Shown: piece by piece, positions 5,982 through 21,171 of the stretch
Numbering within the stretch: position 1 is the stretch's first letter
How the letters are laid out: each line of letters begins with the position of its first letter
Program-made: the position numbers and the translations under genes
Notes under the pieces: model-generated
Seen by the model: the letters and a program-made list of their open reading frames with translations, nothing else
Told to the model about the DNA's origin: nothing
The model's database searches: none
DNA from: a virus
IMG/VR virus record: IMGVR_UViG_3300031963_001075
Coordinates: 1 to 21,171 of that record
DNA: 21,171 nt
Reading direction: 5' to 3' (one strand)

Positions 5982-6160
5982 TATCCAAGTCCTTTGTTCA
6001 TTGCAGCCAGGTCAGCAACATTGATGGCCGGGCCTTGAAAATCTGGGTTCCCGCCAACCTCCCACCAATCATCAAAAGGAATGCCTTCCATTTGGTATTG
6101 ATCTTCATTTGGAAACTGTTGCACAAAATCTTCTAGGGGTAGCGGTTTTCCATTGATCAT
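5981..6160 (-). CDS. Small 59-residue acidic protein between ejection genes
   Basis: A complete short gene, beginning MINGKPLPLEDF and ending with LAAMNKGLG. It starts inside the stop of the upstream gene (ATGA overlap at 6157-6160), and its own TAA overlaps the ATG of the downstream 1083-residue gene (TAATG at 5979-5983). It therefore fills exactly the apparent gap between two large genes, and its translation is probably coupled to both. It is acidic in the middle, with a FDDWWEVGG segment at about 29-37. I do not recognise the family. Its position suggests a small virion component or an assembly partner of an ejection protein, which is inference. The exact fit of both overlaps makes it convincing as a gene despite its length. 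Confidence 0.75.
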   Translation of the reverse strand: MINGKPLPLEDFVQQFPNEDQYQMEGIPFDDWWEVGGNPDFQGPAINVADLAAMNKGLG

Positions 6161-8340: not shown

Positions 8341-9992
8341 CTGATAGTGCTCAATTCTTTTCGTTGTTTATCAAGTCCGATCATTTTCTGTTCAATGTCA
8401 TCAATTTGAGAATCGCTAAAGCCATCCCTACGCAACGCTGCTTTTACGTCTGAAGACAAACCAACAGCTTCCCCGTCTTTGCTATATTTCATTTCAATGT
8501 TATTAAAATCAATATTGCTTTTTTTGGTAGTTCCTTGCGGCCCATAGGAAGAGATCAAGCTTTCCGTAATATTGTCAATTTTCCTAGACTGAATACTTTC
8601 CCTGCGCTTAACAACAAGTTTATTTGCAATATCTCTTTTAGATGGTGCCGGGCCTTTTGAGCCGCCATCTTTCCACGCTTGCGTTTCCTGTTGAAATCCG
8701 TCTTCAACATTTGAAATAAATTTATAGTAATCCTGTTGCTGGCGTTGGCTAATATTTTGCTGCCCAGGAACAAGCCTTGCTTGAGCCCTGGCAATTCCTT
8801 CAATGTCATTCTCAACTGCGCGATTACCGGAATACCAGTTGTCTTGCAATTCGGAAAGCCTGCGAATCCCAACTCCGAGTGACCGCCCTCGATTCTGAAA
8901 ATCAGCCAGGCTAGTAATTAAACCTTTTTGAATTTCATCCTTAAGCATCATTTCGCCCATTACGTTTCTTGGTTCTGCACCAGAAACCTTGTTTGGTAAT
9001 TCAGCTACATATTCTGGGGATACGGCACCAGAGCGAATAGCAATGGCTCGCAGTTTTTCTAGGGTTGCTGGTTTTGGGGAACTAAAGTAATCAGCAATTA
9101 GTGCGCGAGCTTCTGTCTCATCTCCAGATTTTTTAAGCTCTGCTTCGGCTTTTAGAATATCTGTAGATTCAACAAATCGTTTTTTGATTGCTGTGCGGAT
9201 AGCTGACTTTTGTTCCTCTGTGAAAGACATAACATCCCTGGTGTATTTGCCATAATCCCCAGCAGCCATCTTTGCGTTAAGGATTGTCATGTTGCCCTGG
9301 GATAGCTCATCTTTTAAGTATTTAGAAATAACATTGATTTTTGCTGCTTCTACAGATTTTAAAAACTGCGTCATTTTTTCATCAGATGAACCTGGATTCA
9401 TTCTTGCGACATTAAACATCTTTGAAAAAATAGATTGCTCTTCTACATTTCTAGTTGTTCTTGCCTGCTCCCCCATTGCGGGGTCTTCATATGATGCTGT
9501 TGTTTCCCATAGCCGTTCAATTAGTTTTGTGTTTTGCTTGATTGCATCGTCTGTTATTACGTTTCTGGCGGCACTATAATTCTTGAGCATCATGTCCGTG
9601 CTCTTGGCCATCAACGCTTTTCCAGAAGATGTAATCGACTGAATTAAACCAGCAGCCTGGGTAACATCCCTACCAAACAATGGTTGTGCAAATGATTCTA
9701 GAGAGCGAATTTCACTTTGTAGCTCACGGACATCTGTGAGCTGGCCAGTAGAAACCAAGGTGTCTAAATCATTAACTTTCTTTGCGACTTCAAGCTCTAG
9801 CTCTGATCGCATTTGGGCGGCAATGATTTTGTCTTCTTTGTCTTTGCGTTCCTTAATTTCGCCAAACGCAAACTGCATAAGCTGGTCTAGTGACTTCCCA
9901 ACAGCCTGTGACGTACTGGCCATCGGAAAGCTCATGCTAGGAACATCCGCTGAGATGACCCCTGATTCTTGGTATCTAGGTATGCGTGCCAT
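8337..9992 (-). CDS. Putative internal virion protein (T7 gp15 position)
   Basis: 551 residues starting MARIPRYQESGV. It is mainly charged helix, with no signal peptide or membrane segment. Early on it has KERKDKEDKIIAAQ (about 48-61), suggesting a coiled coil. I recognise no catalytic motif. It lies directly after the gp14-like gene, joined by a TAATG 1-base overlap at 9990-9994, and its own TGA overlaps the next ATG (ATGA). In T7 this place is taken by gp15, a helical ejection protein that forms a channel across the cell envelope. The present protein is shorter than gp15 (747). Function is inferred from position and helical composition and could be wrong; a structural role in the virion is likely. 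Confidence 0.5.
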   Translation of the reverse strand: MARIPRYQESGVISADVPSMSFPMASTSQAVGKSLDQLMQFAFGEIKERKDKEDKIIAAQMRSELELEVAKKVNDLDTLVSTGQLTDVRELQSEIRSLESFAQPLFGRDVTQAAGLIQSITSSGKALMAKSTDMMLKNYSAARNVITDDAIKQNTKLIERLWETTASYEDPAMGEQARTTRNVEEQSIFSKMFNVARMNPGSSDEKMTQFLKSVEAAKINVISKYLKDELSQGNMTILNAKMAAGDYGKYTRDVMSFTEEQKSAIRTAIKKRFVESTDILKAEAELKKSGDETEARALIADYFSSPKPATLEKLRAIAIRSGAVSPEYVAELPNKVSGAEPRNVMGEMMLKDEIQKGLITSLADFQNRGRSLGVGIRRLSELQDNWYSGNRAVENDIEGIARAQARLVPGQQNISQRQQQDYYKFISNVEDGFQQETQAWKDGGSKGPAPSKRDIANKLVVKRRESIQSRKIDNITESLISSYGPQGTTKKSNIDFNNIEMKYSKDGEAVGLSSDVKAALRRDGFSDSQIDDIEQKMIGLDKQRKELSTIR

Positions 9993-10585
9993 TATGTTGG
10001 TACAACCATTCTGGTTTCAACTGGTGCTGGAACAAGCCAGTTATAACTTGTTCGATCAAATCCACCGCCCTTGCCTGCGGTTGCACCGGCCATCAAAAGC
10101 TTGGTAGCCGCATCTAACTTGCCTGCTGTTTTTGCTTGTTGGGCCGCAGCTAGATTAGATGCCAAGGCAATGTCTCCAGCTCGTATTGCTGCGTCTGCGT
10201 CATCTAGATAAATCTTGAACTCTCGCCCGGCAGATGTTTCATTAGATGCCCGAACAATATCTGTTGACCCGCTAAACGAATCAACACCACCAGCAAATCC
10301 TTTTGCCGTTAGGGTGGCGTTAGTCTTCTTAAGCCGCTCTAGAACCTGGTTGGCTTTCTGCTGATACTGGATCGCCCGGCGGTCATACTGAGTTTGTTCT
10401 AGCCTTCCCTTGAGCTCTAGCTGCTTGCCCTGGATCTGGCCTTGCTGGTATGAGCTGTAAGCAGACATAACAGATGCGGCCACAGCTGCGGCGGTAAACG
10501 GATCGTTCTGAACCCTGCTTGATCCAGGTGGGTTGTGTGGGTCACCAAGCGGTAGCCCGTGGACGTTGATATTAAATCTGCTCAT
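9992..10585 (-). CDS. Internal virion protein, T7 gp14-like
   Basis: 197 residues, nearly the size of T7 gp14 (196). After a short polar N-terminus comes a small-residue stretch, DPFTAAAVAASVMSAYSSY (about 28-46). A long Gln/Lys-rich helix follows (QGQIQGKQLELKGRLEQ), then QQKANQVLERLKKTNATL, a Gly-rich turn (GFAGGVDSFSGS) and Ala-rich helices. This layout is typical of gp14-type internal virion proteins, which are ejected first and are thought to form a pore in the host outer membrane. It follows tail tubular protein B by one base and overlaps the next gene by one base (TAATG). No strong Shine-Dalgarno is seen, so translation may be coupled. Confidence 0.75.
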   Translation of the reverse strand: MSRFNINVHGLPLGDPHNPPGSSRVQNDPFTAAAVAASVMSAYSSYQQGQIQGKQLELKGRLEQTQYDRRAIQYQQKANQVLERLKKTNATLTAKGFAGGVDSFSGSTDIVRASNETSAGREFKIYLDDADAAIRAGDIALASNLAAAQQAKTAGKLDAATKLLMAGATAGKGGGFDRTSYNWLVPAPVETRMVVPT

Positions 10586-10586
10586 G

Positions 10587-12587
10587 TCATGCCCCAGGGT
10601 ATGTAGATATCTTGTACTCTAAACCTAGCAAAGTCATCTTTAGCGGAATAGTTTGCCTAATAGTGATTTTACCTTCTGTTGTATATCCGAGAATGCTGTC
10701 GATAGTTTTTGTGCCAGTAAAGATAGGTACGGGATCATCGAGTGTGTCTCCTGTGTCAAAGCTTCTAAAGGGTAATTCATTGTCATTGACAATTAAATGC
10801 TGGGTGTCTTTAACAATAGCGTTTACTTCAATGATTCGTTTCTGGTAGGCAAGCCTAGTACCAGCTGCAATCTTTATATCTGCTGGCATGGTTACCGCCT
10901 GGGTAGTAAAGTTAAGACCTACCTGGTATGAACTAGCAGCTGCTCGAGGGAATGTCACCGTGCCGCCACCAGGTACTGTCTGAGCTGCCTGCACCGCGCC
11001 ATCTAAAACAACTTGCACGGACTTGGCCACAAGGTGGGACATCGACACAGACGCAGCTGCGCCACCAGACTTGGCGCAATCGAGCTGTAGGCTGTCATCG
11101 AACACCTCAACGTAATACTGAGTCGTACTATTTATCGTACGTTTCACCACCGTATAAATAGTGGTGAGATCTACGCCAACATCGATGTACTCGCCATCGG
11201 TTGTAAATTCAGACGGTGCAATTACGTTTTGTACCCGCAACATAGAAAAGGCAGCGATTGTCCCGCCCGTGCTGTTAACGATAAATAGCAGGTCATTTTC
11301 ATCGGTAGCTACTGACCGGCGCAGAGCCATCCTTGTGGGAGACTTTAGTAGATGGCCAGCCAGTAGCGATATCTTGCTTGTAACGTAGGTTAATTGCGTG
11401 TCTGTAAACGCAAACTCATTAAGTGATTTTCCCTGCCGCTGCAAGAATAGGGTGCCTGATTCCAGCTGCTGGACACGGACACCTTCTTTGGCGCCATTGC
11501 GGGTGACCGCCTTCATAAAGAAGTTGGTTGGCGTGATTGGCTCTAGACCCTCTTGTGGGCAATAGAACTCGCCACCAGTTGTAAAGATTTGCAGGTCGCG
11601 ACCAGAGGTTACATCGACAATTGCGTTAAAGGTGTTGGTGTCTAGCGTAGCCTCCACCGCATCATCGTCTAATCCCTCGGTTGGCTCAAAGTCAAAAAAC
11701 AATCCAACCTTGGAACCCCATACGGTTGATGGCCGCGACTTAGATCCAGCAAAGAAAAGCCTGCCCTCATGGAACGTAACCGAGCGTGGCCAACCTTTTC
11801 CAGATGACCACACAGCCTCGTAACCAGATTCGTATTCCCATGAACCGTTTGCAATGGCAGAGGTATTAAAGAACGGGAACTCAACTATTGCGTCAACTAC
11901 TGTGGCACTTGTGTATTTGACTATCTTGGCCCGGCCCTGTGGGCTAGCGTTGACATATTGGCCAACCGAACCTGCGCTAAATGGCGTGCCTGTTGACGCT
12001 GTTAACGTGACCTTCCCGCTTACAGCAGACGGTGTCAATGTTCCAGATGGATTAGATACAGATAACGTAAAAGCATACTTGGGAATACTGTCAAAAGAAA
12101 GCGTGCTGGCAGTCCAAGATGTATCAGAGGCCCCGCGCACAATCTTTACCGGGTTGATGTCCTGGTGGCAGACAATCAGGGTATCAGCCGATTGCGTCCA
12201 GGTTAGATTGGCGAGCCTGGCACCGGTAAGGCCAAATGAGCTGGTATCTAGGTAATCGTTTGCTCCACCATTGATTGCCAGCTGCTGCACGGAGTTTTTA
12301 AAAACATACATTCGACTATCGGTAAAGCACAGCATATAGCTGTCGGATGTAGAGAACTCAAACGGAACCAGGCGCACGCCGTTTCCAGCAGATGGCGTGC
12401 TTGAGTTTGGCAGAGCCATAATGTACTTAGAACCGGGCCTGCGCCTAATTCCACCCTGGGGCTGCACCACCACATTGGTGGCCTCCTCTAGGGCGTTAGC
12501 GTAAGCCTGTAGGTCAACCCTGGCCCTCAATAGGGGATCGAGTTCCCCGGTTGAGAAGTTGGTTTGGATTGACGTAAAACGTGCCAT
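10587..12587 (-). CDS. Tail tubular protein B (tail nozzle), T7 gp12-like
   Basis: 666 residues. The N-terminus is highly characteristic: MARFTSIQTNFSTGEL, then RVDLQAYANALEEATN and QGGIRRRPGSKY (about 43-54). This is the signature of nozzle or stabilisation proteins of podophage tails. The remainder is beta-rich, with PRSVTFHEGRLFFAG at about residues 273-287, another feature of this family. It forms the distal tail tube and closes it until DNA ejection. It is shorter than T7 gp12 (794), as in many non-T7 podophages. The start follows GAGGAACTG and overlaps the stop of tail protein A by one base (TGATG), so the two are translationally coupled. Confidence 0.9.
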   Translation of the reverse strand: MARFTSIQTNFSTGELDPLLRARVDLQAYANALEEATNVVVQPQGGIRRRPGSKYIMALPNSSTPSAGNGVRLVPFEFSTSDSYMLCFTDSRMYVFKNSVQQLAINGGANDYLDTSSFGLTGARLANLTWTQSADTLIVCHQDINPVKIVRGASDTSWTASTLSFDSIPKYAFTLSVSNPSGTLTPSAVSGKVTLTASTGTPFSAGSVGQYVNASPQGRAKIVKYTSATVVDAIVEFPFFNTSAIANGSWEYESGYEAVWSSGKGWPRSVTFHEGRLFFAGSKSRPSTVWGSKVGLFFDFEPTEGLDDDAVEATLDTNTFNAIVDVTSGRDLQIFTTGGEFYCPQEGLEPITPTNFFMKAVTRNGAKEGVRVQQLESGTLFLQRQGKSLNEFAFTDTQLTYVTSKISLLAGHLLKSPTRMALRRSVATDENDLLFIVNSTGGTIAAFSMLRVQNVIAPSEFTTDGEYIDVGVDLTTIYTVVKRTINSTTQYYVEVFDDSLQLDCAKSGGAAASVSMSHLVAKSVQVVLDGAVQAAQTVPGGGTVTFPRAAASSYQVGLNFTTQAVTMPADIKIAAGTRLAYQKRIIEVNAIVKDTQHLIVNDNELPFRSFDTGDTLDDPVPIFTGTKTIDSILGYTTEGKITIRQTIPLKMTLLGLEYKISTYPGA

Positions 12588-13201
12588 CAGTTCCTCACAT
12601 CGATCAAGCTGTAATCTTCAATCACAGAAATTGGCTGGCCCTGGCCATCGATGGTGGTGGCGGTACGCATATAACCACCCCGGCCATTTTCTGACGCAGC
12701 TCCAATGGCAATCTGCTGCCAGTATTGGGTTTTGTCGATCTGGTCTGTAATTGGCAGAGACAGGTGCCAGGCCATCATGTACTTGAGCAGCTGCACAAAG
12801 TAAACCGGCATCTCGTACTCTTGGACGGCATATGGATAGTCGGCGTAGATGGTGGTCTCGTTGGTGAGCAGCTTGTCTTGGAATATTCGGTAGGCTTTAA
12901 TCGGTCTGGCACCAATAGCGTTGGTAACAAATATCTGCCTGGGGGGCCCAATCCGATCACCTGGCAGCTGATATTCGTACCTGTATTCTGTGGTTGGCGT
13001 GGTGATTAGTTGAGATAGCTGGATCTTTTTGTACAGAAAAGACCACGGATAATTTAATAGCGTCTGATTCTTGATGTCCGGGTATAACCGGTCACATACG
13101 TTAGCTGCGTTAGTTCCCTCGTTAAACGATGAGATAGCTTTTGCACCCAACATCAAGAGAGCGTCTGAACAAATTGATAGTGCGGAATCACCTGCTGCCA
13201 T
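12587..13201 (-). CDS. Tail tubular protein A (tail adaptor), T7 gp11-like
   Basis: About 204 residues beginning MAAGDSALSICSDAL. Family marks are LLMLGAKAISSFNEGTNAA, the CDRLYPDIKNQTLLNYPWSF stretch, and PPRQIFV. T7 gp11-type adaptors dock under the portal ring and carry the nozzle. Two in-frame ATGs exist, at 13207 and 13201. The GGAG at 13210-13213 is only 2 bases from the first but 8 from the second, so I chose 13201. The start lies inside the end of the upstream glycosyltransferase gene (14-base overlap), and the stop overlaps the start of tail protein B. This A-B gene pair is the normal arrangement. Confidence 0.9.
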   Translation of the reverse strand: MAAGDSALSICSDALLMLGAKAISSFNEGTNAANVCDRLYPDIKNQTLLNYPWSFLYKKIQLSQLITTPTTEYRYEYQLPGDRIGPPRQIFVTNAIGARPIKAYRIFQDKLLTNETTIYADYPYAVQEYEMPVYFVQLLKYMMAWHLSLPITDQIDKTQYWQQIAIGAASENGRGGYMRTATTIDGQGQPISVIEDYSLIDVRN

Positions 13202-13847
13202 TTGCATTACTCCATATATCTCTTACCCAGCCACTTGAACCAGAACCTTTTGGCTCGCCATGAAAACAAACTACTTTTGCCTCATCTGGTTTTTGCTTGC
13301 CAAGAAGATGAAATTTGTATGAGAAGATTCTATTGGGGAATATCTGTTGCCACAAGCAGTCTGGCTTTTGATTCTTAGCAATAAATGCCTGATCTCCAAG
13401 ATTCAGGCTCCCAGAGTACATAGTCATGTAAAACGATGGGTCTGACCTAAATGTCAGGTAAATGTGCGAATAGTCACCGTTCCAGGCCATCATCCCACTT
13501 GCCGGGGTATCGCGCTTGCCCAGGTCTTTGAGCATCGTGAATTTATGTGGGTACTCGGCCAGCTCGGTCAGGTCACCACAGATAACAGTATCCAGGTCAA
13601 AGTAAAGCACCGGGCCATCAAATACCCAAGAGAAGAGCTCGATCTTAGACCACCAACCTGGCCACCCGTGTTTGAGCGGTATCCGCTCGCAAGGTACATC
13701 TACATCCGAAAAACAGACAAACCTATGGTCTCCAAGATTCTTGGCAACCATATTCATCAATCTTTCCACATCGGCTGGGGTGTAGGGTTCTTTGCCAGCT
13801 GATTGGCTAAAGCGACCAGACTTGAGAACGCAGGCAACAGTTAACAT
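13188..13847 (-). CDS. GT-A type glycosyltransferase (GT8-like)
   Basis: 219 residues. A GT-A fold is indicated by the early strand LTVACVLKSG, the WPGWWSKIELF segment (about 62-72), the metal-binding DLD motif in VLYFDLDTVICGDL (D84, D86), a GDQAF box (151-155) and a late VVCFHGEPKG motif (about 192-201). GT8-related enzymes have matching DxD, donor-site and HG.PK elements. It likely transfers a sugar from a nucleotide-sugar donor; the acceptor is unknown. It overlaps the preceding DUF115-like gene by 7 bases, with an AGGAG before its ATG, and its 3' end overlaps tail protein A. Co-transcription with head and tail genes suggests it acts late, perhaps on a virion protein or on host surface sugar. 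That is inference. Confidence 0.75.
   Translation of the reverse strand: MLTVACVLKSGRFSQSAGKEPYTPADVERLMNMVAKNLGDHRFVCFSDVDVPCERIPLKHGWPGWWSKIELFSWVFDGPVLYFDLDTVICGDLTELAEYPHKFTMLKDLGKRDTPASGMMAWNGDYSHIYLTFRSDPSFYMTMYSGSLNLGDQAFIAKNQKPDCLWQQIFPNRIFSYKFHLLGKQKPDEAKVVCFHGEPKGSGSSGWVRDIWSNANGSR
13210..13213 (-). promoter_or_regulatory. Ribosome binding site deciding the tail protein A start
   Basis: GGAG on the minus strand, 8 bases before the ATG at 13201 and only 2 bases before the ATG at 13207. Normal spacing favours the internal start, which shortens the protein by two residues (loss of Met-Gln). Confidence 0.6.
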
Positions 13848-14392
13848 GGAGCTCCTAGAACTTGGCGGGTATATCCGCTAAGAGAGGTTACACCATCCAT
13901 GCGTCCATGTTCTTTGTGTCTATACAAAAACCTCTGCCAATGCTCAATATTATTGGTGGGTGCAAATACCTTGTCTGGTTTGCTGTCCGGGTATTGGGCG
14001 TGGTAATCGGTGCTGTTAACACTTAGGGGGATGCCAGCCATAATTACCTCATCGAAACCCATAGCTTTGGCCCAAATTGCGGCTACAACCCCGCTCGATC
14101 CTTTTATGCCAACCATGCTATTCCACCAGTAATCTACATCATTTCCTATGATGTCTGCCCTGGCATGAACCTTTATTGGCCTACCGGCCTTGGTTTTGTA
14201 TTCTTGAGCGTAGCTATTGTGCTGCGTCCAGATATGCTCAATCTCAGGGACTATTGCAGCTGCGTTATTGACCCCAACGATGGTGGCACCTGGGCGCAGC
14301 TTGAGTGCGTTTTCTAGGTCTTCAAAGACACAAGGGGCCGCGCCACAGATAATGGCACACCCCTTGTGTTGTACGTCATACGAATGCGGCAT
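13841..14392 (-). CDS. DUF115-like Rossmann-fold protein, probably sugar-related
   Basis: 183 residues from the ATG at 14392 (a GTG lies directly before it). Residues 11-18 form a strand and Gly loop (GCAIICGAAP), followed by an acidic helix, then IVGVNNAAAIVPEI. Near the middle is GSSGVVAAIWAKAMGFDEVIMAGIPL, with the GF.EVI..G pattern seen in DUF115 / MAF-type proteins that handle nonulosonic acid or other sugar transfer. The match is partial, and other Rossmann enzymes are possible. No good Shine-Dalgarno precedes the start; a small hairpin at 14400-14416 sits there instead. The 7-base overlap with the GT8-like gene suggests the two work together in one glycosylation step. Confidence 0.5.
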   Translation of the reverse strand: MPHSYDVQHKGCAIICGAAPCVFEDLENALKLRPGATIVGVNNAAAIVPEIEHIWTQHNSYAQEYKTKAGRPIKVHARADIIGNDVDYWWNSMVGIKGSSGVVAAIWAKAMGFDEVIMAGIPLSVNSTDYHAQYPDSKPDKVFAPTNNIEHWQRFLYRHKEHGRMDGVTSLSGYTRQVLGAPC

Positions 14393-14399
14393 CACAATC

Positions 14400-14416
14400 G
14401 GGAGCTTATGGCCCCC
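14400..14416 (-). other. Small hairpin before the DUF115-like gene
   Basis: On the minus strand GGGGGC-CATAA-GCTCCC can fold into a 6-bp stem (one G-U) with a 5-base loop. It ends 7 bases before the ATG at 14392 and is not followed by a T tract, so it is not an intrinsic terminator. It could limit ribosome access and reduce expression of the sugar genes. This may also be chance. Confidence 0.3.
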
Positions 14417-14422
14417 TCTTGA

Positions 14423-14701
14423 TTAGTCCGTATCCGTGTTGGCTAATGTTGTGCCATCGTTCACATCAACTACGCCTGATGAGTTAGACAGTACATATAC
14501 CAGAGTTGCTACAGCAGTTGAACCAGTTGAAGTTACACAGTAAATCAGGTCTCCAACTTCCAGGGTATCAGCCAGGCTGTTGAAGTAACCTTCGGTATTT
14601 ACTGTGGCGATTGTGTCAGTTGTCTTATAAGCGTAGATCGATGGTGCATTGCCACGCTTATTGGGGCTGACAGAGTTTAAACCAGTAATAGAAAATGCCA
14701 T
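14423..14701 (-). CDS. Small putative head decoration/structural protein
   Basis: 92 residues, MAFSITGLNSVSPN at the start, then AYKTTDTIATVNTEGYF, a LEVGDLIYCVTSTG strand and a C-terminal VVDVNDGTTLANTDTD. It should be beta-rich and small. Proteins of this kind, placed straight after the major capsid gene, are frequent in podophages and are usually called hypothetical or head-associated. An AAGGAG lies 7 bases before the ATG, and the gene follows the capsid stop by 11 bases, so abundant expression is expected. A capsid decoration or fibre-base role is inferred from position and composition; no direct functional motif is visible. Confidence 0.6.
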   Translation of the reverse strand: MAFSITGLNSVSPNKRGNAPSIYAYKTTDTIATVNTEGYFNSLADTLEVGDLIYCVTSTGSTAVATLVYVLSNSSGVVDVNDGTTLANTDTD

Positions 14702-14712
14702 TGTCGTTCTCC

Positions 14713-15552
14713 TTATGCGTCAGTCGTTTGGACTTCGACAATACCTTCGGCATCGATGGCAATCGCACCGGCTGAGAATACTGCGTTGACCAAGAAACTG
14801 GTCTTCTCAGGGATGTAATTGATTTCCGTGCGAGGAGCGATACCCTCTGCATATCCGATTGCGTCACGGTGGAAAGCCCACAGCTTGCGCTCAGACGATG
14901 CAACGGGAAGACCACCCTCGGTGCGGTCACCGATTGTGTGGAAAGTAAAGCCGAGGAATGTGTTGAGCTCACCAGATACCAGGGCGCGGACGGTATTGAA
15001 ATCTGCGCTGGTTACCGAGGTCTCGCTTAACAACGATGCCAAAGAGTTTGCGTGGATGATCATGTGGCGGTTGTCCATTGGAACGTTGCCTTTATCCAGC
15101 AGCTTCTTGGCGGCACGCAGTTTAGCCACGTTCAGACCGGTGTTGGTGCCACCCTCGTCTTCGGTCACGATCAAGCTTGTGCTTGAACCTGCGAGTGCAT
15201 CCAAAACGATCTGGTCTTGACGGCGGCCAATAGCGGAACCAACCACCTGGACAAGCTCGGAACGCTCGTCAAAGTTAACTTTAGCCTGATTGAAGATGTC
15301 GCTGTACTCAGCGGCATTGTAATCAGTCAGCGTGCAGGTGACGTTAGAGAACGCTACGTTTAAGGGGCTAACATCGGATTGGGGAACGCGCACGGTGGCC
15401 ACGCCCTTGCCGACTTTAGGGAATTTTACAGTTGAGCCTTCGACACCCCGGCGCTGACGAACCGCACCTACCAATTGGGCTTTGCCCTGGTAAGCTTGCT
15501 TAACTTCAGCGTCAAAGAGCGTTACAAAGGCGTTTGATAATGAAATCGCCAT
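14713..15552 (-). CDS. Major capsid protein (HK97 fold expected)
   Basis: 279 residues. N-terminus MAISLSNAFVTLFDAEVKQAYQ; then GAVRQRRGVEGSTVKFPKVGKG. The segment DIFNQAKVNFDERSELVQ (about 84-101) is followed by GRRQDQIVLDAL, a helix pattern typical of T7-like and related podophage coat proteins. It continues with beta-rich C-terminal strands ending in GIVEVQTTDA. It is shorter than T7 gp10A (345). No gp10B-like frameshift extension is evident: the stop is followed closely by the next gene. GGAG lies 7 bases before the start. The gene stands downstream of a terminator and a 233-base gap, so it probably has its own promoter. Neighbours (scaffold upstream, small head protein downstream) fit. 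Confidence 0.92.
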   Translation of the reverse strand: MAISLSNAFVTLFDAEVKQAYQGKAQLVGAVRQRRGVEGSTVKFPKVGKGVATVRVPQSDVSPLNVAFSNVTCTLTDYNAAEYSDIFNQAKVNFDERSELVQVVGSAIGRRQDQIVLDALAGSSTSLIVTEDEGGTNTGLNVAKLRAAKKLLDKGNVPMDNRHMIIHANSLASLLSETSVTSADFNTVRALVSGELNTFLGFTFHTIGDRTEGGLPVASSERKLWAFHRDAIGYAEGIAPRTEINYIPEKTSFLVNAVFSAGAIAIDAEGIVEVQTTDA

Positions 15553-15591
15553 TTGGAATCTCCAAGAAAGTTAAAAAGGTTTGGTCGCTTC

Positions 15592-15603
15592 GGTTAGCCG
15601 GTG
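15592..15603 (-). repeat. 12-base direct repeat, copy in the capsid leader
   Basis: CACCGGCTAACC (minus strand), identical to the terminator copy at 15739-15750, about 40 bases before the capsid ATG. The CACCGG part could pair with the CCGGTG in the terminator 3' arm in a read-through RNA. Confidence 0.6.
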
Positions 15604-15722
15604 TTCTGGGCCTCTTGCTTGCTGGTTACGCCAGCCGCTCGTCAGCATCCGCTGCGGTAAGGGTCGATGGATATCGATTGGCCTTAAACGAATATCTAAC
15701 GGTTCTAAAAATAAAATGCAAG

Positions 15723-15752
15723 AAAAAAAGCCACCGGTGGTTAGCCGGTGGC
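15723..15752 (-). terminator. Rho-independent terminator between scaffold and capsid genes
   Basis: On the minus strand GCCACCGG-CTAACCA-CCGGTGGC forms a perfect 8-bp GC-rich stem (15730-15752 on the window), followed at once by seven T residues (15723-15729 as A on the plus strand). This is a textbook intrinsic terminator for the minus-strand operon. It lies 33 bases past the scaffold stop and 170 bases before the capsid ATG. Confidence 0.92.
15739..15750 (-). repeat. 12-base direct repeat, copy in the terminator
   Basis: CACCGGCTAACC (minus strand) is part of the 5' arm and loop of the terminator. An identical copy lies in the capsid leader at 15592-15603. Confidence 0.6.
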
Positions 15753-15760
15753 GTTCAAGC

Positions 15761-15776
15761 CTCTCCTTGCGGAGAG
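15761..15776 (-). other. GNRA-tetraloop hairpin after the scaffold stop
   Basis: The minus strand reads CTCTCC-GCAA-GGAGAG: a perfect 6-bp stem closed by a GCAA (GNRA) loop, 10 bases after the scaffold gene and 8 bases before the terminator stem. Such a compact hairpin could protect the 3' end of the upstream mRNA or be an RNase III or processing signal. The role is inferred. Confidence 0.55.
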
Positions 15777-15785
15777 TGAGGAGGA

Positions 15786-16568
15786 TTAGTTGCCGAAAGT
15801 CGATGCGAACATCCGCTCGACCTTTGATCGATAGGCCGGGTCTGTCTTGTACTTTGGATCGGCCACCATTGCGTAGAGCTCGTCCTTGCTAGCTGAACCC
15901 TCAACCGGAGCAGACTGCAAAGGAATCTTCATCCCCTCGTAGGTCTCCCGTATCTTCATAAATACACGCACCCCAGCAGCTGTGCCGCCCATGACCTTGA
16001 ATTCTTCAAAGTCATCCTTGCTGAGAATTCCCTTGCGAACCAGGCCAGCACCCCAATCGCCCATGCCCTTGATGATTGCATCTGCGTTAGGGCCAAGGGC
16101 CTTGCGCTCTTCTTCGATGGTGCGAGATACCTGCTGCGCCTGCTCGCCGTTCATGGCCACGACATCGCCAACCAGCTTGTCTAGAGCTGCTTGAGATATC
16201 CCATATTCTTTAGCCCACCCCATAACGTGGCCACGCACCGGGTCATCTTCTGGGATATCCCCAAAGACCGAGGTGTCGTATTTGCCGTCAGCTGGCGGTT
16301 TGTGCTTGCCTTGAGCTATCTGCTTTCGCAGGTCTTGCCAGCTCTTGGCTATGCCCTCCAGGTCGGGTGAGGAATCGTCCCTTTTCCAGAAGTTCTCTGG
16401 CCACCAATCTGGACGCTCTAGTGGTGTATCGTCATCTTGCTCCTCGCGGTGCTCGATGTCTGAACTGCTTGGGCTTGCCTGCTGGCCTTGGTCTTCAGTA
16501 ATTGATACCGAATCGAGTAGGCCAGCTTCTTGGCTTTCGCCGCTGGGCTCGTTTGCTTGCGTTTCCAT
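15786..16568 (-). CDS. Capsid assembly scaffold protein, T7 gp9-like
   Basis: 260 residues with a disordered, acidic, Gln/Ser-rich N-terminus (about 1-52). Then comes PDWWPENFW (about 53-61), a Trp/Pro box common near the start of podophage scaffolds. A charged helical middle follows, and a C-terminal DELYAMVADP segment then KTDPAYRSKVERMF (about 229-254) form the usual capsid-contacting end. Scaffold proteins direct coat assembly and leave the procapsid. AAGGAG lies 7 bases before the ATG, which is directly adjacent to the stop of the Bbp19-like gene. The gene is the last before a terminator, so upstream transcription probably largely ends here. Confidence 0.85.
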   Translation of the reverse strand: METQANEPSGESQEAGLLDSVSITEDQGQQASPSSSDIEHREEQDDDTPLERPDWWPENFWKRDDSSPDLEGIAKSWQDLRKQIAQGKHKPPADGKYDTSVFGDIPEDDPVRGHVMGWAKEYGISQAALDKLVGDVVAMNGEQAQQVSRTIEEERKALGPNADAIIKGMGDWGAGLVRKGILSKDDFEEFKVMGGTAAGVRVFMKIRETYEGMKIPLQSAPVEGSASKDELYAMVADPKYKTDPAYRSKVERMFASTFGN

Positions 16569-16832
16569 TTACAGGCTCCTTGCCTTTTTGATCCGTGCTT
16601 CCAAATCTCGCACCACGCTGTTCTGCCCTTCACGGTAGAAAGCGAATGAGGGATCGCTGCCCGGCACGGCAACGGGCTGCTCTAGTAGGGCAGCTCGTAA
16701 CCACCCCATCAATTTCTGGCCATCTTCTGAACCGAGCACGCGCAGGCAGAGCTTGTTTAAATCTTCTACCGCCTGCTGCGCTCCACGGATATCTGTTGGT
16801 ATGGCCTCTAGGTCTTCCCAGCCGCCAGACAT
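16569..16832 (-). CDS. Bbp19-like small phage protein
   Basis: 87 residues, MSGGWEDLEAIP at the start. Core features are LRVLGSEDGQKLMGWLRAALL (about 30-50) and FAFYREGQNSVVRDLEARI (about 63-81). These match the pattern of the Bbp19 family named from Bordetella phage BPP-1: a VL...GQ....L helix and an F..EGQR.V/L..I helix. Members lie between the portal and capsid genes of podophages, and their function is not established. Here the ATG overlaps the portal stop by one base (TGATG), indicating coupled translation, and the next gene begins directly after the stop. A head assembly role is inferred. Confidence 0.7.
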   Translation of the reverse strand: MSGGWEDLEAIPTDIRGAQQAVEDLNKLCLRVLGSEDGQKLMGWLRAALLEQPVAVPGSDPSFAFYREGQNSVVRDLEARIKKARSL

Positions 16833-18409
16833 CAGGTCATGCCCCCAACCAGCTGCTCAACCATCTCTGGGTTTTCCTGGGCTATCTGAGCTGCCTGCTC
16901 GGCCATCTCTTGCGCCTCAGCCATCTTCGCCTCGCGCTCGGCCTTGGTCATTCTGATGGACTGCGGAATGGCCAACTTCTCGGCAAGCATATCAAGCATA
17001 TCGCCAACCTTGATTGCCATCTGACCCTCTGGGCCAGCCTGGGCTGCAATCTGAGCGTACTGGAGAATGTTGCTGACATCTTCCATGTTTTGGGCCATCG
17101 CCAGCGGAGCTACAGCAGATACCTTGATCTCCAGGCCGTTGACCCGCAGGGGCATTGTGATGATGCCGCGCTCGTCCATAACCTCAAGAATCTTGGTAAC
17201 CACGGGAATAAGGGTCTCGTTAATCAACCGGCCAAAGGCAGAGCCCAGGTTTTGCGAGAGCTCTTTCATCCGCTCGACCACCTCGGTAGCTGACCGGGCC
17301 GACATATTGTCCGGTGGCAAGGATTCGTCTAGCAAAATGCGCTTGATGTTTTGCACCAGGTCGTTGATCACCAGCTGCGACAGGTTGAAGTCACCAGCTC
17401 GCGGCAGGGCCTTGAGCGATTCACCTTGTGGCCCACCATTACGCGCCACGGGAATAATGGCACCTGGGACAATCTTGATTGTTGCAGGGTTGAGTACGCC
17501 GTCATCAGCTGCGGTGTAGACACCAGCAATTGATAGAGACGCATTTTTGAGCACCAGCTCTTTGACCTTATTTAGTGTCTTAATATCTGGCATCGCGGTT
17601 ATTACCGGGCCGCGCCCATAGATCTCGCCAGCCACCTTCATGTACCGGCTTACCACCCAGGGGCTAGTCTTTAGCCTGCGATAGACAATCTCTTGCTTGG
17701 TCTCTTTCTGGATAACGTGGTAGCAGTAGTCACCGCGCTGGTTGTCGTAAACCGTGGCCTCTACGAATTCAAGGTCTTCCGTTGGCTTTGATTCAATCTT
17801 TAACTTTAGTTGGCCATCAATCTTGGCATCTCGCCATTGACGCTGGATTGATTCGCCTTTGATTCGCATACGGCGGTAGACGTTGTCCACCTGGCCATTG
17901 GCACCCTCTTCAAATGCCACAAGGTACTGCGGCACCGGCACAAAGTTTAGCGGGTTAACGTCATCTCCGGGCTGCACCATCATTACGGCTGTGCCAATAG
18001 AGAGATCTAGCAAGAACTCGCCCATAGCAATGTCAAAGTTTGACTGCTTGAGCGTGGCAAATAGTTTCTCGGTGTAGATGTCGAGCGCAGCTTGTGCCTC
18101 GCCCCTGCGATCATCTGGAATGTCTGCGCCTGGCTCAAGCCTCGCCCACTTACGCTGCGGTGGGAAGATTCCTGATTGTAGGCGGTTAGCAAATCGCTGG
18201 GTGGAGTTGATCGCCGTGGAATCAAACACCCGATTCATTTTCTTTGCGCCGCCAACTTTGCCCTCGTAGTACCCGTCATAGAGGTTGCGCTGTGGGAGCG
18301 CAAACTCGTAGGCATCCTCATAGAGGTCGCGGAAATCATCCTTCTTTCGTAACGCCATATCGTGCCGCTTGAGCACATCCTCTGGCGATAGTCTCATCAT
18401 CTCAGCCAT
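16832..18409 (-). CDS. Portal protein (head-tail connector), T7 gp8-like
   Basis: 525 residues, close to T7 gp8 (536). The N-terminal helix RLSPEDVLKRHDMALRKK is followed by LYEDAYEFALPQRN, MNRVFDSTAI (about 58-67) and LQSGIFPPQRKWARLEP (about 77-93), all marks of the head-tail connector family. Later PPDNMSARSATEVVERM is a conserved crown/stem element. The C-terminus is rich in Ala, Glu, Gln and Met (about 470-515), as expected of barrel helices. Twelve copies form the vertex ring through which terminase drives DNA and to which tail protein A binds. AAAGGA lies about 9 bases upstream of the ATG. Confidence 0.93.
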   Translation of the reverse strand: MAEMMRLSPEDVLKRHDMALRKKDDFRDLYEDAYEFALPQRNLYDGYYEGKVGGAKKMNRVFDSTAINSTQRFANRLQSGIFPPQRKWARLEPGADIPDDRRGEAQAALDIYTEKLFATLKQSNFDIAMGEFLLDLSIGTAVMMVQPGDDVNPLNFVPVPQYLVAFEEGANGQVDNVYRRMRIKGESIQRQWRDAKIDGQLKLKIESKPTEDLEFVEATVYDNQRGDYCYHVIQKETKQEIVYRRLKTSPWVVSRYMKVAGEIYGRGPVITAMPDIKTLNKVKELVLKNASLSIAGVYTAADDGVLNPATIKIVPGAIIPVARNGGPQGESLKALPRAGDFNLSQLVINDLVQNIKRILLDESLPPDNMSARSATEVVERMKELSQNLGSAFGRLINETLIPVVTKILEVMDERGIITMPLRVNGLEIKVSAVAPLAMAQNMEDVSNILQYAQIAAQAGPEGQMAIKVGDMLDMLAEKLAIPQSIRMTKAEREAKMAEAQEMAEQAAQIAQENPEMVEQLVGGMT

Positions 18410-18414
18410 TTTGT

Positions 18415-18687
18415 TTAGTCCTTTTTGTGCCTTTGCGCGAAATTACGGGCCGCTTCTTTGCTGCCGAAACCCCACGCTTTGAGGGCGAGCTTGAGGCGGG
18501 TGGGTCTACCCTTTTCGTCCGTGAGAGGCCCAGCCATTCCACCAAATCGCGCAGCAAAGCTAACACGCCTCGGGTTCGTTCCAGACTTGACCGGGGATTT
18601 GAGGTTGCTGCCTTCTTTGTTCTTGAAGTATTTGCGGCCTGCTTCATTTAGTCCACCTTCTGGGTTTTGATATTTTTTCTGAACCAT
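18415..18687 (-). CDS. DUF6321-like small basic protein
   Basis: 90 residues from the ATG at 18687, which shares a base with the upstream stop (TAATG). A GTG further up is less likely. It starts MVQKKYQNPEGGLNEAGRKY, then SNLKSPVKSG, and later RRVSFAARFGGMAGPL and ALKAWGFGSKEAARNFAQRH. The GGL...GR....G.NLK.PV pattern is that of DUF6321-type proteins, frequent next to portal or terminase genes of phages and of unknown function. The strong positive charge suggests nucleic acid contact or a packaged protein, which is inference. Confidence 0.65.
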   Translation of the reverse strand: MVQKKYQNPEGGLNEAGRKYFKNKEGSNLKSPVKSGTNPRRVSFAARFGGMAGPLTDEKGRPTRLKLALKAWGFGSKEAARNFAQRHKKD

Positions 18688-19271
18688 TATTCGTACCACT
18701 CAATCATCAAGTGAGCCATGTGCGCTTGGCCGCTTCTGTTTGTTAACCTAAATAAATAAGTTGTCAGGGGCGCTAAAACATATTGAAACGAAAATGCAGC
18801 AGCTCCACCAGCCTGACCGCCAGACCCGCCTGCAAGAAACTCTCCGGTCAAAGCCGTTCCGGTAGTAGTGACTGTTGGGTTGACAAGTATTGCGCTTGAG
18901 CTCGTATTGGTTGATGACCTATAACGATTGATGGCTGTAAACGATGTGCCACCAGTTACCGTTGCGTTTTCGTAAATAGTGAATTCCGCATCCCCGCCAC
19001 AATTAACATCAAACACTAGGTGAGGATATTTTCCAGCAGCCCAGGCAACAGCAATGTCAATAGACGCATTGTCAGCCAGTTGATTTGCGTCACCATTTAA
19101 GTAGTAAGCATAAAAGGCTCGGCCTTCGTGCAACCTGACATGGTTAACGTCAGCAACTACAAATGGCTTTTCTGACCCGGCAACAGTTTGATTGCCATCT
19201 TTATCAATAAATGTTGACGTAACAAATATTGACTTTGTATTGTCAGATTCTCGCTGAACAATAATTGCCAT
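18687..19271 (-). CDS. Conserved beta-rich probable virion protein
   Basis: 194 residues, MAIIVQRESDNTKSIFVTST at the start. Features are VRLHEGRAFYAYYL (about 45-58), HLVFDVNCGGDAEFTIYENATV (about 84-105), a Gly/Ser-rich loop (LAGGSGGQAGGAAAF) and a C-terminal TTYLFRLTNRSGQAHMAHL then IEWYE. It has an all-beta look, with an ending (LFR.TN..G....... .WYE) that I recall from hypothetical proteins encoded between terminase and portal in many phages. The function is not established; a capsid-surface or tail-associated role is plausible. It overlaps both neighbours by one base (TAATG on each side), so it belongs firmly to the head operon. Confidence 0.6.
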   Translation of the reverse strand: MAIIVQRESDNTKSIFVTSTFIDKDGNQTVAGSEKPFVVADVNHVRLHEGRAFYAYYLNGDANQLADNASIDIAVAWAAGKYPHLVFDVNCGGDAEFTIYENATVTGGTSFTAINRYRSSTNTSSSAILVNPTVTTTGTALTGEFLAGGSGGQAGGAAAFSFQYVLAPLTTYLFRLTNRSGQAHMAHLMIEWYE

Positions 19272-19423
19272 TATTTCTTGGGCTTCATTGCGGTTTTAGC
19301 TGCCTTCTTAAATGCATCGGCAGTTGGTGCGCCTGGTGCGCCAGGCTTACGCATCTTCTCGCCAGAGCCCTCGGCTATCCGCTCACGTTTTTTATGGATG
19401 TTGGCATATAGTCCGGGCTTCAT
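19271..19423 (-). CDS. Small basic phage protein (50 residues)
   Basis: A short gene starting MKPGLYANIHKKRERIAEGS and continuing GEKMRKPGAPGAPTADAFK before a Lys-rich tail. The GLYANIH.KR.RI..GSGEKMRKPG pattern is one I recognise from many phage and metagenomic small proteins of unknown function. The ATG overlaps the stop of the DUF6496-like gene (ATGA), and its TAA overlaps the next ATG (TAATG). It is very basic, which may mean DNA or RNA contact. Existence is well supported by motif and by both overlaps; function is unknown. Confidence 0.75.
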   Translation of the reverse strand: MKPGLYANIHKKRERIAEGSGEKMRKPGAPGAPTADAFKKAAKTAMKPKK

Positions 19424-19575
19424 TTCTTGGCCATCCCTGCTTGAGACATTGCAATTGCCACGGCCTGCTTTTGGCTCTTAACTACTGGGCCACCTTTTCC
19501 AGAGTGCAAGGTTCCTGATTTGTACTCGCGCATGACCTTGGCCACTTTCTTTTGCATCTTGTCTTTTTTATCCAT
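19420..19575 (-). CDS. DUF6496-like small basic protein (51 residues)
   Basis: A short gene starting MDKKDKMQKKVAKVMREYKS, then GTLHSGKGGPVV and KSQKQAVAIAMSQAGMAKK. The pattern VM.E...G.L.SG.GG.V....QA.AIA.S.A is that of DUF6496-type proteins, which occur in phages and bacteria and have no known function. AAGGA lies 5 bases before the ATG. It overlaps the next gene by ATGA. It lies in a run of small basic genes between terminase and portal. Confidence 0.8.
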   Translation of the reverse strand: MDKKDKMQKKVAKVMREYKSGTLHSGKGGPVVKSQKQAVAIAMSQAGMAKK

Positions 19576-19583
19576 GATTGTCC

Positions 19584-19835
19584 TTATGCCATTGGGCCTG
19601 CGCCCAGGGTTGATTGGCCAACACCAGCTTCCGGTGTCAGACGCTGCTCAGACAACAAAGCTCTTCCACCACGGCGAGCTCTACGGCGAGCTGCGCGTTC
19701 TTCATCAATTTCTGAAGAAATAGATTTTGCAACCGGTTTTGACCCTTCTCTCATTTGATCTGCAACAGTTCCAAGACCGCCGTCTTGTCGTGGCTTATCA
19801 AATACTTTTTTAATGCTGCCAACTGCTCCACCCAT
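19584..19835 (-). CDS. Small phage protein with RRGG...LLS...TLG C-terminal motif
   Basis: 83 residues, starting MGGAVGSIKKVFDKPRQDGG. The centre is Glu/Arg-rich (SSEIDEERAARRRARRGG), and the end reads RALLSEQRLTPEAG then STLGAGPMA. The basic tract followed by a LLS...TLG ending resembles common phage small proteins that end in GR.STILT...TLLG. It shares this ending with the gene directly upstream. AGGAG, which overlaps the upstream stop codon, is 7 bases before the ATG. The function is unknown; its place in the packaging and head operon suggests an assembly or internal role, by inference. Confidence 0.7.
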   Translation of the reverse strand: MGGAVGSIKKVFDKPRQDGGLGTVADQMREGSKPVAKSISSEIDEERAARRRARRGGRALLSEQRLTPEAGVGQSTLGAGPMA

Positions 19836-19845
19836 AATTAAACTC

Positions 19846-20082
19846 CTATGCGATTTCAGATGATCCTAAGGTTTGTATTCCCTGCTCCGGGGAAACCCGA
19901 GCAGCCGACAACAACATCCGCGACCCACCACGCAACCTGGCCATACGCTTTGATGCGGCCTGTTCGCCTAGTTCTCTGCGCTCTTCTTCAGCCTGTATCT
20001 TGAGCCGCTCGTTTTCTTTGCGCGTCTCTTCGATAGCCCTTTCTTGTGGGCCGGTGTCTGGTTTTCTTGTTAAAGCAGACAT
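19846..20082 (-). CDS. Small phage protein with RGG...LLS...TLG C-terminal motif
   Basis: 78 residues from the ATG at 20082 (MSALTRKPDTGPQERAIEET). A longer reading starting at 20142 has no good ribosome site and would overlap the gp13-like gene, so the inner start, with GAGG 8 bases upstream, is preferred. A strongly charged helix (RKENERLKIQAEEERRELGE) precedes an ending RLRGGSRMLLSAARVSPEQG then IQTLGSSEIA. The end matches that of the next gene. A coiled coil is likely. The function is unknown. Confidence 0.7.
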   Translation of the reverse strand: MSALTRKPDTGPQERAIEETRKENERLKIQAEEERRELGEQAASKRMARLRGGSRMLLSAARVSPEQGIQTLGSSEIA

Positions 20083-20084
20083 AT

Positions 20085-20582
20085 TTACCTCGCCATTAAA
20101 AAATAATCCACACCATCTGTTCCGTACTTTCGCATCAGACACTCTTCCTTAAACCCAACCGCTGATGCCCATTTGTACGCCCGTGTATCCGTAGATCTAA
20201 CGGTTATCTGTGTTCGATGCAATCCCATAGATATCGCAGAGATATCTAAAACTAAGTTTGCTGTCTTGGTAAGCGTGATTGGCATTGTTCTCGCAATGTC
20301 ATCTGCTACTAGCCACGCCTCGGCAACGCCATTCCAGATTGAAACGAAACCAAAGATAGCTGCTGGCTGGTTGTAGACGAAAGCGGTAACAGCTGCGCCC
20401 ATCTGTTCCTGTTGGTCAAAGACATCAATGGCCTCCTCTCGGTTGGCCACAACTAGTACCTCCTCGGATTTGATATCTATTCTGGCGGCGTGGTTTTTGT
20501 GAAAGGGCATAAAGAACAGGCCCGTTCTTCTGCGGTTGTCGTTGAGTTTCTCAGCGAGTTGTAAAGACATCAAAGTCGGCAT
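20085..20582 (-). CDS. GNAT-fold protein, T7 gp13-like
   Basis: 165 residues. The centre holds AAVTAFVYNQPAAIFGFVSI, then NGVAEAWLVADD, followed by LHRTQITVRSTDTRAYKWA and SAVGFKEECLMRKYG with a DGVDYFLMAR ending. The A.GFVSI...VAE.W and L.R.Q..V......A..W...GF..E pattern is that of the T7 gp13 / DUF2833 group, which has an acetyltransferase (GNAT) fold. In T7, gp13 is needed for virion morphogenesis, and no substrate is proven. The gene overlaps the end of the terminase by 32 bases from the first ATG. A second in-frame ATG at 20570 exists, and neither has a clear Shine-Dalgarno. Here it lies next to terminase rather than after the nozzle gene. Confidence 0.75.
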   Translation of the reverse strand: MPTLMSLQLAEKLNDNRRRTGLFFMPFHKNHAARIDIKSEEVLVVANREEAIDVFDQQEQMGAAVTAFVYNQPAAIFGFVSIWNGVAEAWLVADDIARTMPITLTKTANLVLDISAISMGLHRTQITVRSTDTRAYKWASAVGFKEECLMRKYGTDGVDYFLMAR

Positions 20583-21171
20583 TGACCACCGTTTGGGCTA
20601 TCTGTGTGTTTTGGGCAAATGCACTCTTGGTCATGCGCCTGTGTTCGCCGCCACCGAGTAGCAGGTATCCGAATGCGTCACCAACGTGGGAGTGCTCGTT
20701 TTTATTTGGGCTATCTCTGAATCTTTCCTGGCCAGCTCCAACGGATACCCGTTTAAAATGATATCCACCGGCTAACGATTTTCGGAGGAGCTTGCATTGC
20801 GTATTGACAATCAATCCAGGTTTGCCGTTTATGAGCCTCTGCATCGGGGCGGCACCTGCCTCACGCCTGACCTTGAAGTCGTTAGATGGCGTGGGTTGAG
20901 CTCGCAGCCCCAGGGTTCTCAGGTGGTCAAAAGCGGTGACCTCGTAGATTGCGTCCCTCTGCATACCGGCGGGGTCACCCCAGACCATCAGCTGCGCCTT
21001 TGGAAACCGCGCATTCAACTCAGCCAGGAGCTGCTGGCCGAACCGCTCCAGGCCCATATCAAAAGTCACAATCTCATGCAGAACTATCCAACGCCCGTTA
21101 GCGAGCCGCTGACCTATGACCGCAGCTGGCGTAAGACCAAAGTCTAGGCCCACCTGTAGCGGTATGCTTGG
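20551..21171 (-). CDS. Terminase large subunit, C-terminal nuclease domain (partial)
   Basis: The frame is open to the right window edge (PSIPLQVGLDFG...), so the 5' ATPase part lies outside; 206 residues are seen. The visible part is the RNase H-like nuclease. The first acidic residue is in GLDFGLTPAAVIGQ, a second in VWGDPAG, and the third in HVGDAFGYLLLG near the C-terminus. These are the three acidic positions expected of headful or cos-type large terminases that cut concatemeric DNA. EIVTFDMGLERFGQQLLAEL lies between. It should bind the portal ring to package DNA. The downstream gp13-like gene overlaps its 3' end. Confidence 0.9.
   Translation of the reverse strand, partial: PSIPLQVGLDFGLTPAAVIGQRLANGRWIVLHEIVTFDMGLERFGQQLLAELNARFPKAQLMVWGDPAGMQRDAIYEVTAFDHLRTLGLRAQPTPSNDFKVRREAGAAPMQRLINGKPGLIVNTQCKLLRKSLAGGYHFKRVSVGAGQERFRDSPNKNEHSHVGDAFGYLLLGGGEHRRMTKSAFAQNTQIAQTVVNADFDVFTTR

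Follow-up and report, generated by a model that had tools for sequence, protein, structure and literature searches.

The stretch of DNA analysed here (the window) is the 21,171-nt virus record IMGVR_UViG_3300031963_001075, whose minus strand carries the head genes. Its scaffold gene, which also has a weak match to the head assembly family PHROG 1052 (E 1.9e-6), is followed by a hairpin with seven T (15752-15723), by a further 170 nt and then by the major capsid gene (Table 1). The nearest named phage in the phages collection is the Methylophilales phage MEP301 (MW452941), with a capsid 76.7% identical to that of the window and the same order of head genes. Relatives were taken from the best 80 loci of a capsid search in viral_contigs, from a search with the MEP301 capsid (at least 80 further matches, 68 with new locus ids and many on contigs already in the set) and from a search by hairpin pattern, which gave at least 120 stretches. 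The element described below is present across these loci in at least 142 distinct versions, counted with 40-nt flanks. Many gaps among the first 80 loci show, in this order, a hairpin with a T run, whose sequence varies, two hexamers resembling a promoter, and a conserved block in which compensatory changes are visible.

Promoters and terminators were counted in 73 representatives, thinned at 80% identity over 45 nt upstream, among which the window was included despite L005 being identical there. L020 was excluded from both counts because its upstream DNA is scaffold coding sequence and looks rearranged, and L011, L012 and L057 have too little upstream DNA. A1 and A2 do not contain L082 (SI2). 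We also used 24 relatives' records of 31-37 kb; one of them, G001, holds locus L001, whose capsid is 99% identical to that of the window.

Table 1. Genes and sequence features around the gap between scaffold and capsid in the window
Feature	Position	Strand	Evidence or remark
Scaffold (capsid assembly) gene, 260 aa	15786..16568	-	ORF; PF05396 E 1.5e-39
Intrinsic terminator stem-loop, perfect 8-bp stem, 7-nt loop	15730..15752	-	Site scan; fold; terminators in relatives
Seven-T tract of terminator	15723..15729	-	Window sequence
Putative -35, TTGCAT	15716..15721	-	Family register; 3 of 6 letters match TTGACA; begins one base past the T tract
Putative -10, TAGATA	15693..15698	-	Family register; 17-nt spacer; 5 nt before the RNA model's first base; weak match
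Structured leader RNA, four hairpins P1-P4, about 105 model positions	15580..15687	-	R1 96.9 bits, E 3.1e-24; covariation
Hairpin P1, internal loop module GGCNNA / CCC	15659..15685	-	Alignment, covariation
Hairpin P2	15643..15654	-	Alignment, covariation
Hairpin P3, CGUAA loop, AAG before closing C	15617..15636	-	AAG invariant in 84 rows, on the 3' side of P3
Hairpin P4, same module strand-swapped (GGCCC / GGCNNACC)	15592..15612	-	Columns 96-125 and 97-124 change from G-C to A-U on both sides in 2 and 4 rows, respectively
Capsid Shine-Dalgarno, GGAG	15560..15563	-	Window sequence; similar purine-rich sites in 40 sequences
Major capsid gene, 279 aa	14713..15552	-	PF19821 E 1.8e-73; PHROG 3437 E 4.9e-52

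The terminator between scaffold and capsid

The original prediction placed a perfect 8-bp stem with seven T at 15723-15752, before the capsid gene, and this is what lies there. Read on the minus strand, 15752-15730 is GCCACCGG-CTAACCA-CCGGTGGC, followed by TTTTTTT at 15729-15723. The RNA fold of the hairpin has an energy of -16.5 kcal/mol (z -4.9), and none of 200 shuffles was equally stable. In a scan of 5000-21171 it ranks first among 23 terminator-like sites, with 7 G-C pairs and a full T run; the 23 sites as a whole are no more than chance, since 18.7 +/- 4.2 are expected there. The hairpin has the features of an intrinsic terminator, i.e. a G+C-rich stem-loop, a T run directly after it, a place past the stop codon and one-directionality, the last because the opposite strand lacks a T run after the stem.

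Among relatives the sequences of such terminators differ and their place is the same. We found one at most 130 nt from the upstream stop in 46 of 68 representatives, the window included, by a rule that 1.2% of mononucleotide-shuffled regions also satisfy; the other five of the 73 lack an upstream frame in the DNA available. For this count the scaffold is taken to be the closest open frame upstream with 180 codons or more; in L008 this frame belongs to another gene. An earlier rule gave 42 of 70, and misses loci with long inserts because it counts terminators from the RNA; the terminator of L137 was caught by that rule and missed by the later one. Termination between scaffold and capsid, as had been proposed, is likely.

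The presence of the terminator varies with the position of the upstream stop. With the nearest stop 75 nt or more ahead of the RNA, the terminator is found in 43 of 44 representatives. MEP301, which has its scaffold stop 38 nt before the RNA, differs from the window in having no terminator before the capsid. Other MEP301-like loci, grouped by eye, also lack it; in these only about 35-51 nt separate the scaffold stop from the RNA, and the promoter therefore overlaps the end of the scaffold gene. The RNA is kept where the terminator is missing among the 68 representatives. The original prediction put its emphasis on the terminator. It is indeed present and stable, but comparison of the relatives indicates that it is dispensable and not a constant part of the gap (it occurs in 3 of the 24 representatives where the stop is closer than 75 nt), and most of the gap is filled by the conserved leader (15687-15580).

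Some loci carry additional material in this region. The terminator of L159 has a stem identical to that of the window and a different loop. In L059, L062, L073 and L077, judged by eye, extra conserved blocks with further terminator-like hairpins are inserted several hundred nt ahead of the RNA, after the terminator of the scaffold and before the promoter of the capsid, and L010 has a short trace of them; another inserted block occurs in L019 and L079. The extra blocks of L077 and L079 gave no Rfam match. At about 2300-2850 in L008 an open frame lies between scaffold and RNA, and its translation looks by eye like an HNH homing endonuclease.

A promoter-like site in fixed register with the leader

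If transcription ends before the capsid, the capsid may need a promoter of its own in the gap, as the original prediction pointed out, naming a comparison of the gap in relatives among its checks. TTG at -35 and TA at -10 stand in fixed register with the RNA in 63 of the 73 representatives, whereas 50 mononucleotide-shuffled sets reached 6 at most, with a mean of 1.84. Register here means that the -10 ends 3-5 nt before model position 1, with a spacer of 16-19. The usual forms in relatives are TTGCA[T/A], sometimes TTGACA, at -35 and TANAAT or TANAAA at -10, and MEP301 has the promoter-like pair TTGCAA-17-TATATT. Hexamers 16-19 nt apart in a conserved place, the pattern of sigma70-type promoters, are thus present in relatives. 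The expectation of a separate promoter is borne out for them. In the window itself, TTGCAT-17-TAGATA is weak relative to the E. coli consensus TTGACA/TATAAT. The window, like L005, which is identical there, falls outside the 63 because its hexamers are weak and the script scored a neighbouring frame higher; a general sigma70 scan listed no site at this position. We infer that the weak hexamers of the window work and that the RNA is transcribed from them. The +1 predicted for the window is near 15686 and coincides, give or take one or two bases, with the start of P1 (15685).

Comparison with T7 helps to place this arrangement. The T7 record has the terminator Tphi after capsid gene 10, in agreement with the original prediction, and it also has the promoter phi10 between scaffold gene 9 and capsid gene 10. 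Since T7 too has a promoter before its capsid, which is thereby given a dedicated start, the differences are the position of the terminator, which precedes the capsid in the window, and the type of promoter. T7 uses its own RNA polymerase, whereas the promoter in relatives of the window is of sigma70 type and PF00940, the T7-type single-subunit RNA polymerase, was matched in none of the 24 relatives' records of 31-37 kb. This search covered those records rather than the 21-kb window, and the T7 positive control matched. The main text of the MEP301 paper reports that neither an RNA nor a DNA polymerase was identified in this phage (PMC8024684), and the words promoter, terminator and non-coding have no occurrence in it. 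Because of the absence of PF00940 from the 24 records and of an RNA polymerase from the MEP301 report, the host RNA polymerase most likely reads the capsid promoter, if promoter it is.

A covarying RNA before the capsid gene

Comparison of relatives indicates that the leader is a structured, covarying RNA. The covariance model R1 was built from 41 sequences, the window being one of its training rows, and has one match in each of 84 representatives, largely by construction. Of 130 distinct full elements, 84 remained after thinning at 95% similarity and make up the alignment used for covariation. Among the top 11 column pairs by APC-corrected mutual information, 10 are proposed base pairs, the first nine included. 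The covariation score is 0.487, against 0.166 +/- 0.007 in shuffled alignments and at most 0.08 for slid structures; in the proposed structure 93.8% of cells of the 84-row alignment are paired, against 77.1 when shuffled; 20 of 25 pairs have double changes in at least one row, against 13.7; and 385 cells have them, against 109.8. None of 500 shuffles reached any of these values, which have to be read with the knowledge that the alignment was fitted to the structure of the model and leans towards it, and that relatedness among the sequences is lost on shuffling. However, two outer pairs of P4, 96-125 and 97-124, are absent from R1 and still have 2 and 4 double changes, respectively, against one unpaired cell. 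Beyond these two pairs the mutual information table shows no strong extra pair that would suggest a pseudoknot; it also contains non-structural pairs such as 136-139, 54-55, 62-126 and 48-55. The case for the leader RNA rests on covariation, because single-sequence folding energy is unremarkable. We thus rejected folding energy as support (z of -1.7 in the window, +0.6 in MEP301 and +0.4 in L064).

The first and last hairpins contain the same internal-loop module. In P1 it has the form GGC-NN-A-(C/U) opposite (A/G)-C-CC, and in P4 the form GG-C-CC opposite GG-C-NN-A-CC, so that the order of the strands is reversed. Out of 84 rows, the C and A of the loop and the facing C are kept in 81, 84 and 84, respectively, for P1 and in 83, 84 and 84 for P4. 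The P3 loop is of CGUAA type in the family. The sequence of P2 varies, and all but its weak base pair covary strongly; in the window the inner stem of P4 has one A-C mismatch. The C-loop, a known motif with a sequence preference, offers a possible parallel. It is, like the module of P1 and P4, an asymmetric internal loop in a helix (PMC8570644), and we take the likeness as a lead only. The two were compared by sequence, where the non-Watson-Crick pairs that define the C-loop are not visible. As a separate observation, the 12-mer CACCGGCTAACC is common to the terminator (15750-15739, minus strand) and to the 3' side of P4 (15603-15592, minus strand), by chance or by a small duplication.

Several other identities of the element were considered. 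A leader peptide or small gene was rejected, as no frame is open in more than 28 of 84 sequences and their lengths modulo 3 are spread over 32, 29 and 23. Hammerhead ribozymes have an invariant CUGANGA core, and some members contain a similar string; the columns with its CUG form the 3' strand of P2 and change along with the bases that they pair with, and Rfam gave no match, so this candidate was rejected too. An outer extension of P3, pairing CGATTG with CAATCG, suits some members but not the window or many others. No Rfam 15 family was found at or above its gathering threshold in the part of the window searched, in 20 sources or, in another scan, in 3 sources.

Intrinsic terminators are common after operons, and one whose position is kept while its sequence differs between relatives could be an ordinary end-of-operon signal in an otherwise functionless gap. 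We give this reading almost no credence, for it is contradicted by the strong covariation and the conserved promoter register downstream.

Place of the leader and its possible roles

The association of the RNA with the capsid gene was assessed in loci found by the hairpin pattern alone, since the capsid lies downstream by construction in the 142 capsid-fetched loci. Among the matches listed, a capsid start is found 3' on the same strand in 109 of 117 of these loci; seven of the other 8 end about 110 nt or less from the element, and L088 has a partial capsid match. The distance from RNA to capsid is 28-101 nt with a median of 32 in the whole set of loci listed, and about 30 nt in the window. 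A relative of the scaffold gene lies upstream in 252 of the 261 loci listed. All 24 records of 31-37 kb, which were chosen for carrying the RNA, have exactly one copy of it. In L084, positions 1-230 of the minus strand, at a contig end, hold an extra partial RNA beside a second scaffold end and terminator in opposite orientation, probably a chimeric assembly.

Standing directly after a promoter-like site, in one copy per record and with near-invariant loops, the element might be a trans-acting small RNA, involved in host takeover or packaging, that shares the capsid promoter. This seems improbable, because no terminator was seen by eye between element and capsid in the alignment of relatives and because the 8 pattern-found loci without a capsid start are the truncated ones and the one with a partial capsid match.

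Since the same leader is found in more than a hundred related virus fragments, the capsid is probably expressed as a unit of its own, and the reading that we favour, and hold to be probable, is an insulated transcription unit read by the host polymerase and provided with a cis-acting structured leader. Host RNA polymerase coming from the packaging and scaffold genes would stop at the terminator (15752-15723), and a sigma70-type promoter abutting it (15721-15693) would start a new transcript at about 15686. This transcript would open with the leader RNA (15687-15580), with P1 at or within a base or two of its 5' end, and continue with a linker carrying the Shine-Dalgarno site and then the capsid. 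The leader would raise or tune capsid expression in cis by means of a folded, protected 5' end, and a host or phage factor may bind the repeated GGCNNACC/GGCCC internal-loop module. A role in the ratio of scaffold to capsid, which the original prediction had suggested, is plausible.

How the leader would act could be imagined in two further ways. It could be an autogenous or factor-sensing switch, in which capsid, scaffold or a host protein binds both modules and represses or activates capsid translation, matching supply to assembly. A module present in both P1 and P4 in opposite strand order (GGC-NN-A-CC facing GG-C-CC), with near-invariant C, A and C, is what one expects of a specific binding site; the CGUAA and AAG residues are near-invariant as well, and the RNA adjoins the capsid in nearly all pattern-found loci listed. 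Against a switch, no alternative fold sequestering the ribosome site was seen in 40 sequences, and we regard this mode of action as possible, on the unlikely side. In these 40 sequences the Shine-Dalgarno region is not predicted to be specially open either (mean unpaired probability 0.42, against 0.46 in the element). The TTGGAGATTCCAA of the window could fold into a small hairpin covering the site, which by eye is lost beyond its nearest kin, and sequestration found no support. Secondly, the leader may do no more than stabilise the 5' end, or may be cleaved away, e.g. by RNase III or RNase E, in the manner of the structured 5' ends that certain phage and bacterial mRNAs with strong expression carry. 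Capsid is needed in hundreds of copies, and P1 begins near the predicted transcription start. Yet a plain stabiliser does not need near-invariant loop and internal-loop residues, and we find this option just as doubtful as the switch.

We know of no account of how podoviruses without an RNA polymerase of their own produce capsid in such excess over the other head proteins. A concrete and testable answer would be an insulated transcript for the capsid that opens with a conserved, folded leader. As the RNA is present in a cultured phage, MEP301 (R1 89.2 bits, MEP301 being in the training set), its 5' ends, binding partners and effects on reporters are measurable. The leader could also mark capsid expression of this group in metatranscriptomes.

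Outside the close relatives the picture changes. We scanned nine capsid relatives at a greater distance (SI2, Hodr, HTVC010P, CKB-S2, 1.257, ZCVPP1, Baldr, Skadi-3 and a Manatee Spring phage) with R1, filters off, and none gave a significant match (best E 0.13); hence this type of capsid does not in general require the RNA. The best of these (L278 1372-1479, Manatee Spring podovirus, capsid 26% identical; E 0.13) is on the capsid strand, ends 21 nt before the capsid and has a P1-like hairpin; we did not count it as a match because the opposite strand scores nearly the same (E 0.18). The 60 loci fetched with the SI2 capsid gave two strong R1 matches, both with capsids only 51-52% identical to that of SI2. 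They also gave weak, shortened matches that end 30-34 nt before the capsid, in L353 (E 0.013), L331 and L332 (E 0.089 each). In these (1905-1966 in L331 and L332, 1901-1970 in L353) P1 and the 3' part are kept and P2 and P3 are missing. A second model, R2, gave E 0.094 for L353, and L331 is absent from its list for 28 sources. These three may be cut-down versions of the leader, which for now is only a lead. In host genomes a loose pattern found at least 118 stretches in genome_contigs, and R1 matched none of the 80 loci scanned, which says little about prophages. Searching named phages for the gap at the DNA level turned up nothing beyond short matches of the kind expected by chance, and none of them covered 80%.

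SI2-like phages (part of L279-L325, and L082) have a different conserved leader about 100 nt before the capsid, with the letters GCAGACCC...GGCACCC...GGCCC...GGCCCTCG in 15 aligned sequences. With terminator-like and promoter-like sites placed by eye, they appear to have the order terminator, promoter, leader, capsid. One might speculate that the RNA represents a new family of phage regulatory RNAs, in which the module copies of P1 and P4, strand-swapped with respect to each other, together make up a paired binding site for a factor dedicated to the control of major capsid production. Groups of relatives would then have exchanged the RNA for another (SI2-like phages) or shortened it (perhaps L331 and L353), with the layout of promoter and leader retained. 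We put this forward as a tentative possibility, less likely than not. On this view, small podoviruses that lack an RNA polymerase of their own would generally control the capsid by way of its leader.

Terminators, promoters and structured leaders are known kinds of elements. The RNA family, the strand-swapped module and the place before the capsid were not found in Rfam 15 or in the literature searched, whose coverage leaves out most subscription journals and in which we found no description of the leader RNA. The Mu-gpT-DE motif, a candidate structured RNA near a Mu-type capsid gene, resembles the leader in being a structured RNA tied to a capsid gene. If it is in Rfam 15, it did not match the leader, and its name did not occur in the papers among the matches listed. 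Other candidates, manA and wcaG, are structured RNAs of marine metagenomes and cyanobacterial phages, possibly 5' UTRs (Weinberg et al. 2010, PMC2864571). They stand before metabolic genes, whereas the leader of the window stands before the capsid, and the words capsid, head protein and portal are absent from the main text of that paper.

Elsewhere on the minus strand of the window, two genes lie between capsid and tail tube (13188-14395), one glycosyltransferase-like (PHROG 1962, E 6.2e-41) and one alpha-2,3-sialyltransferase-like (PHROG 4603, E 2e-5); MEP301 has no annotated glycosyltransferase or sialyltransferase genes at that position. At 625-2697 of the same strand a tail-fibre-like protein shows, by eye, long alanine/serine/asparagine repeats and a collagen-like GATGATGAT run.
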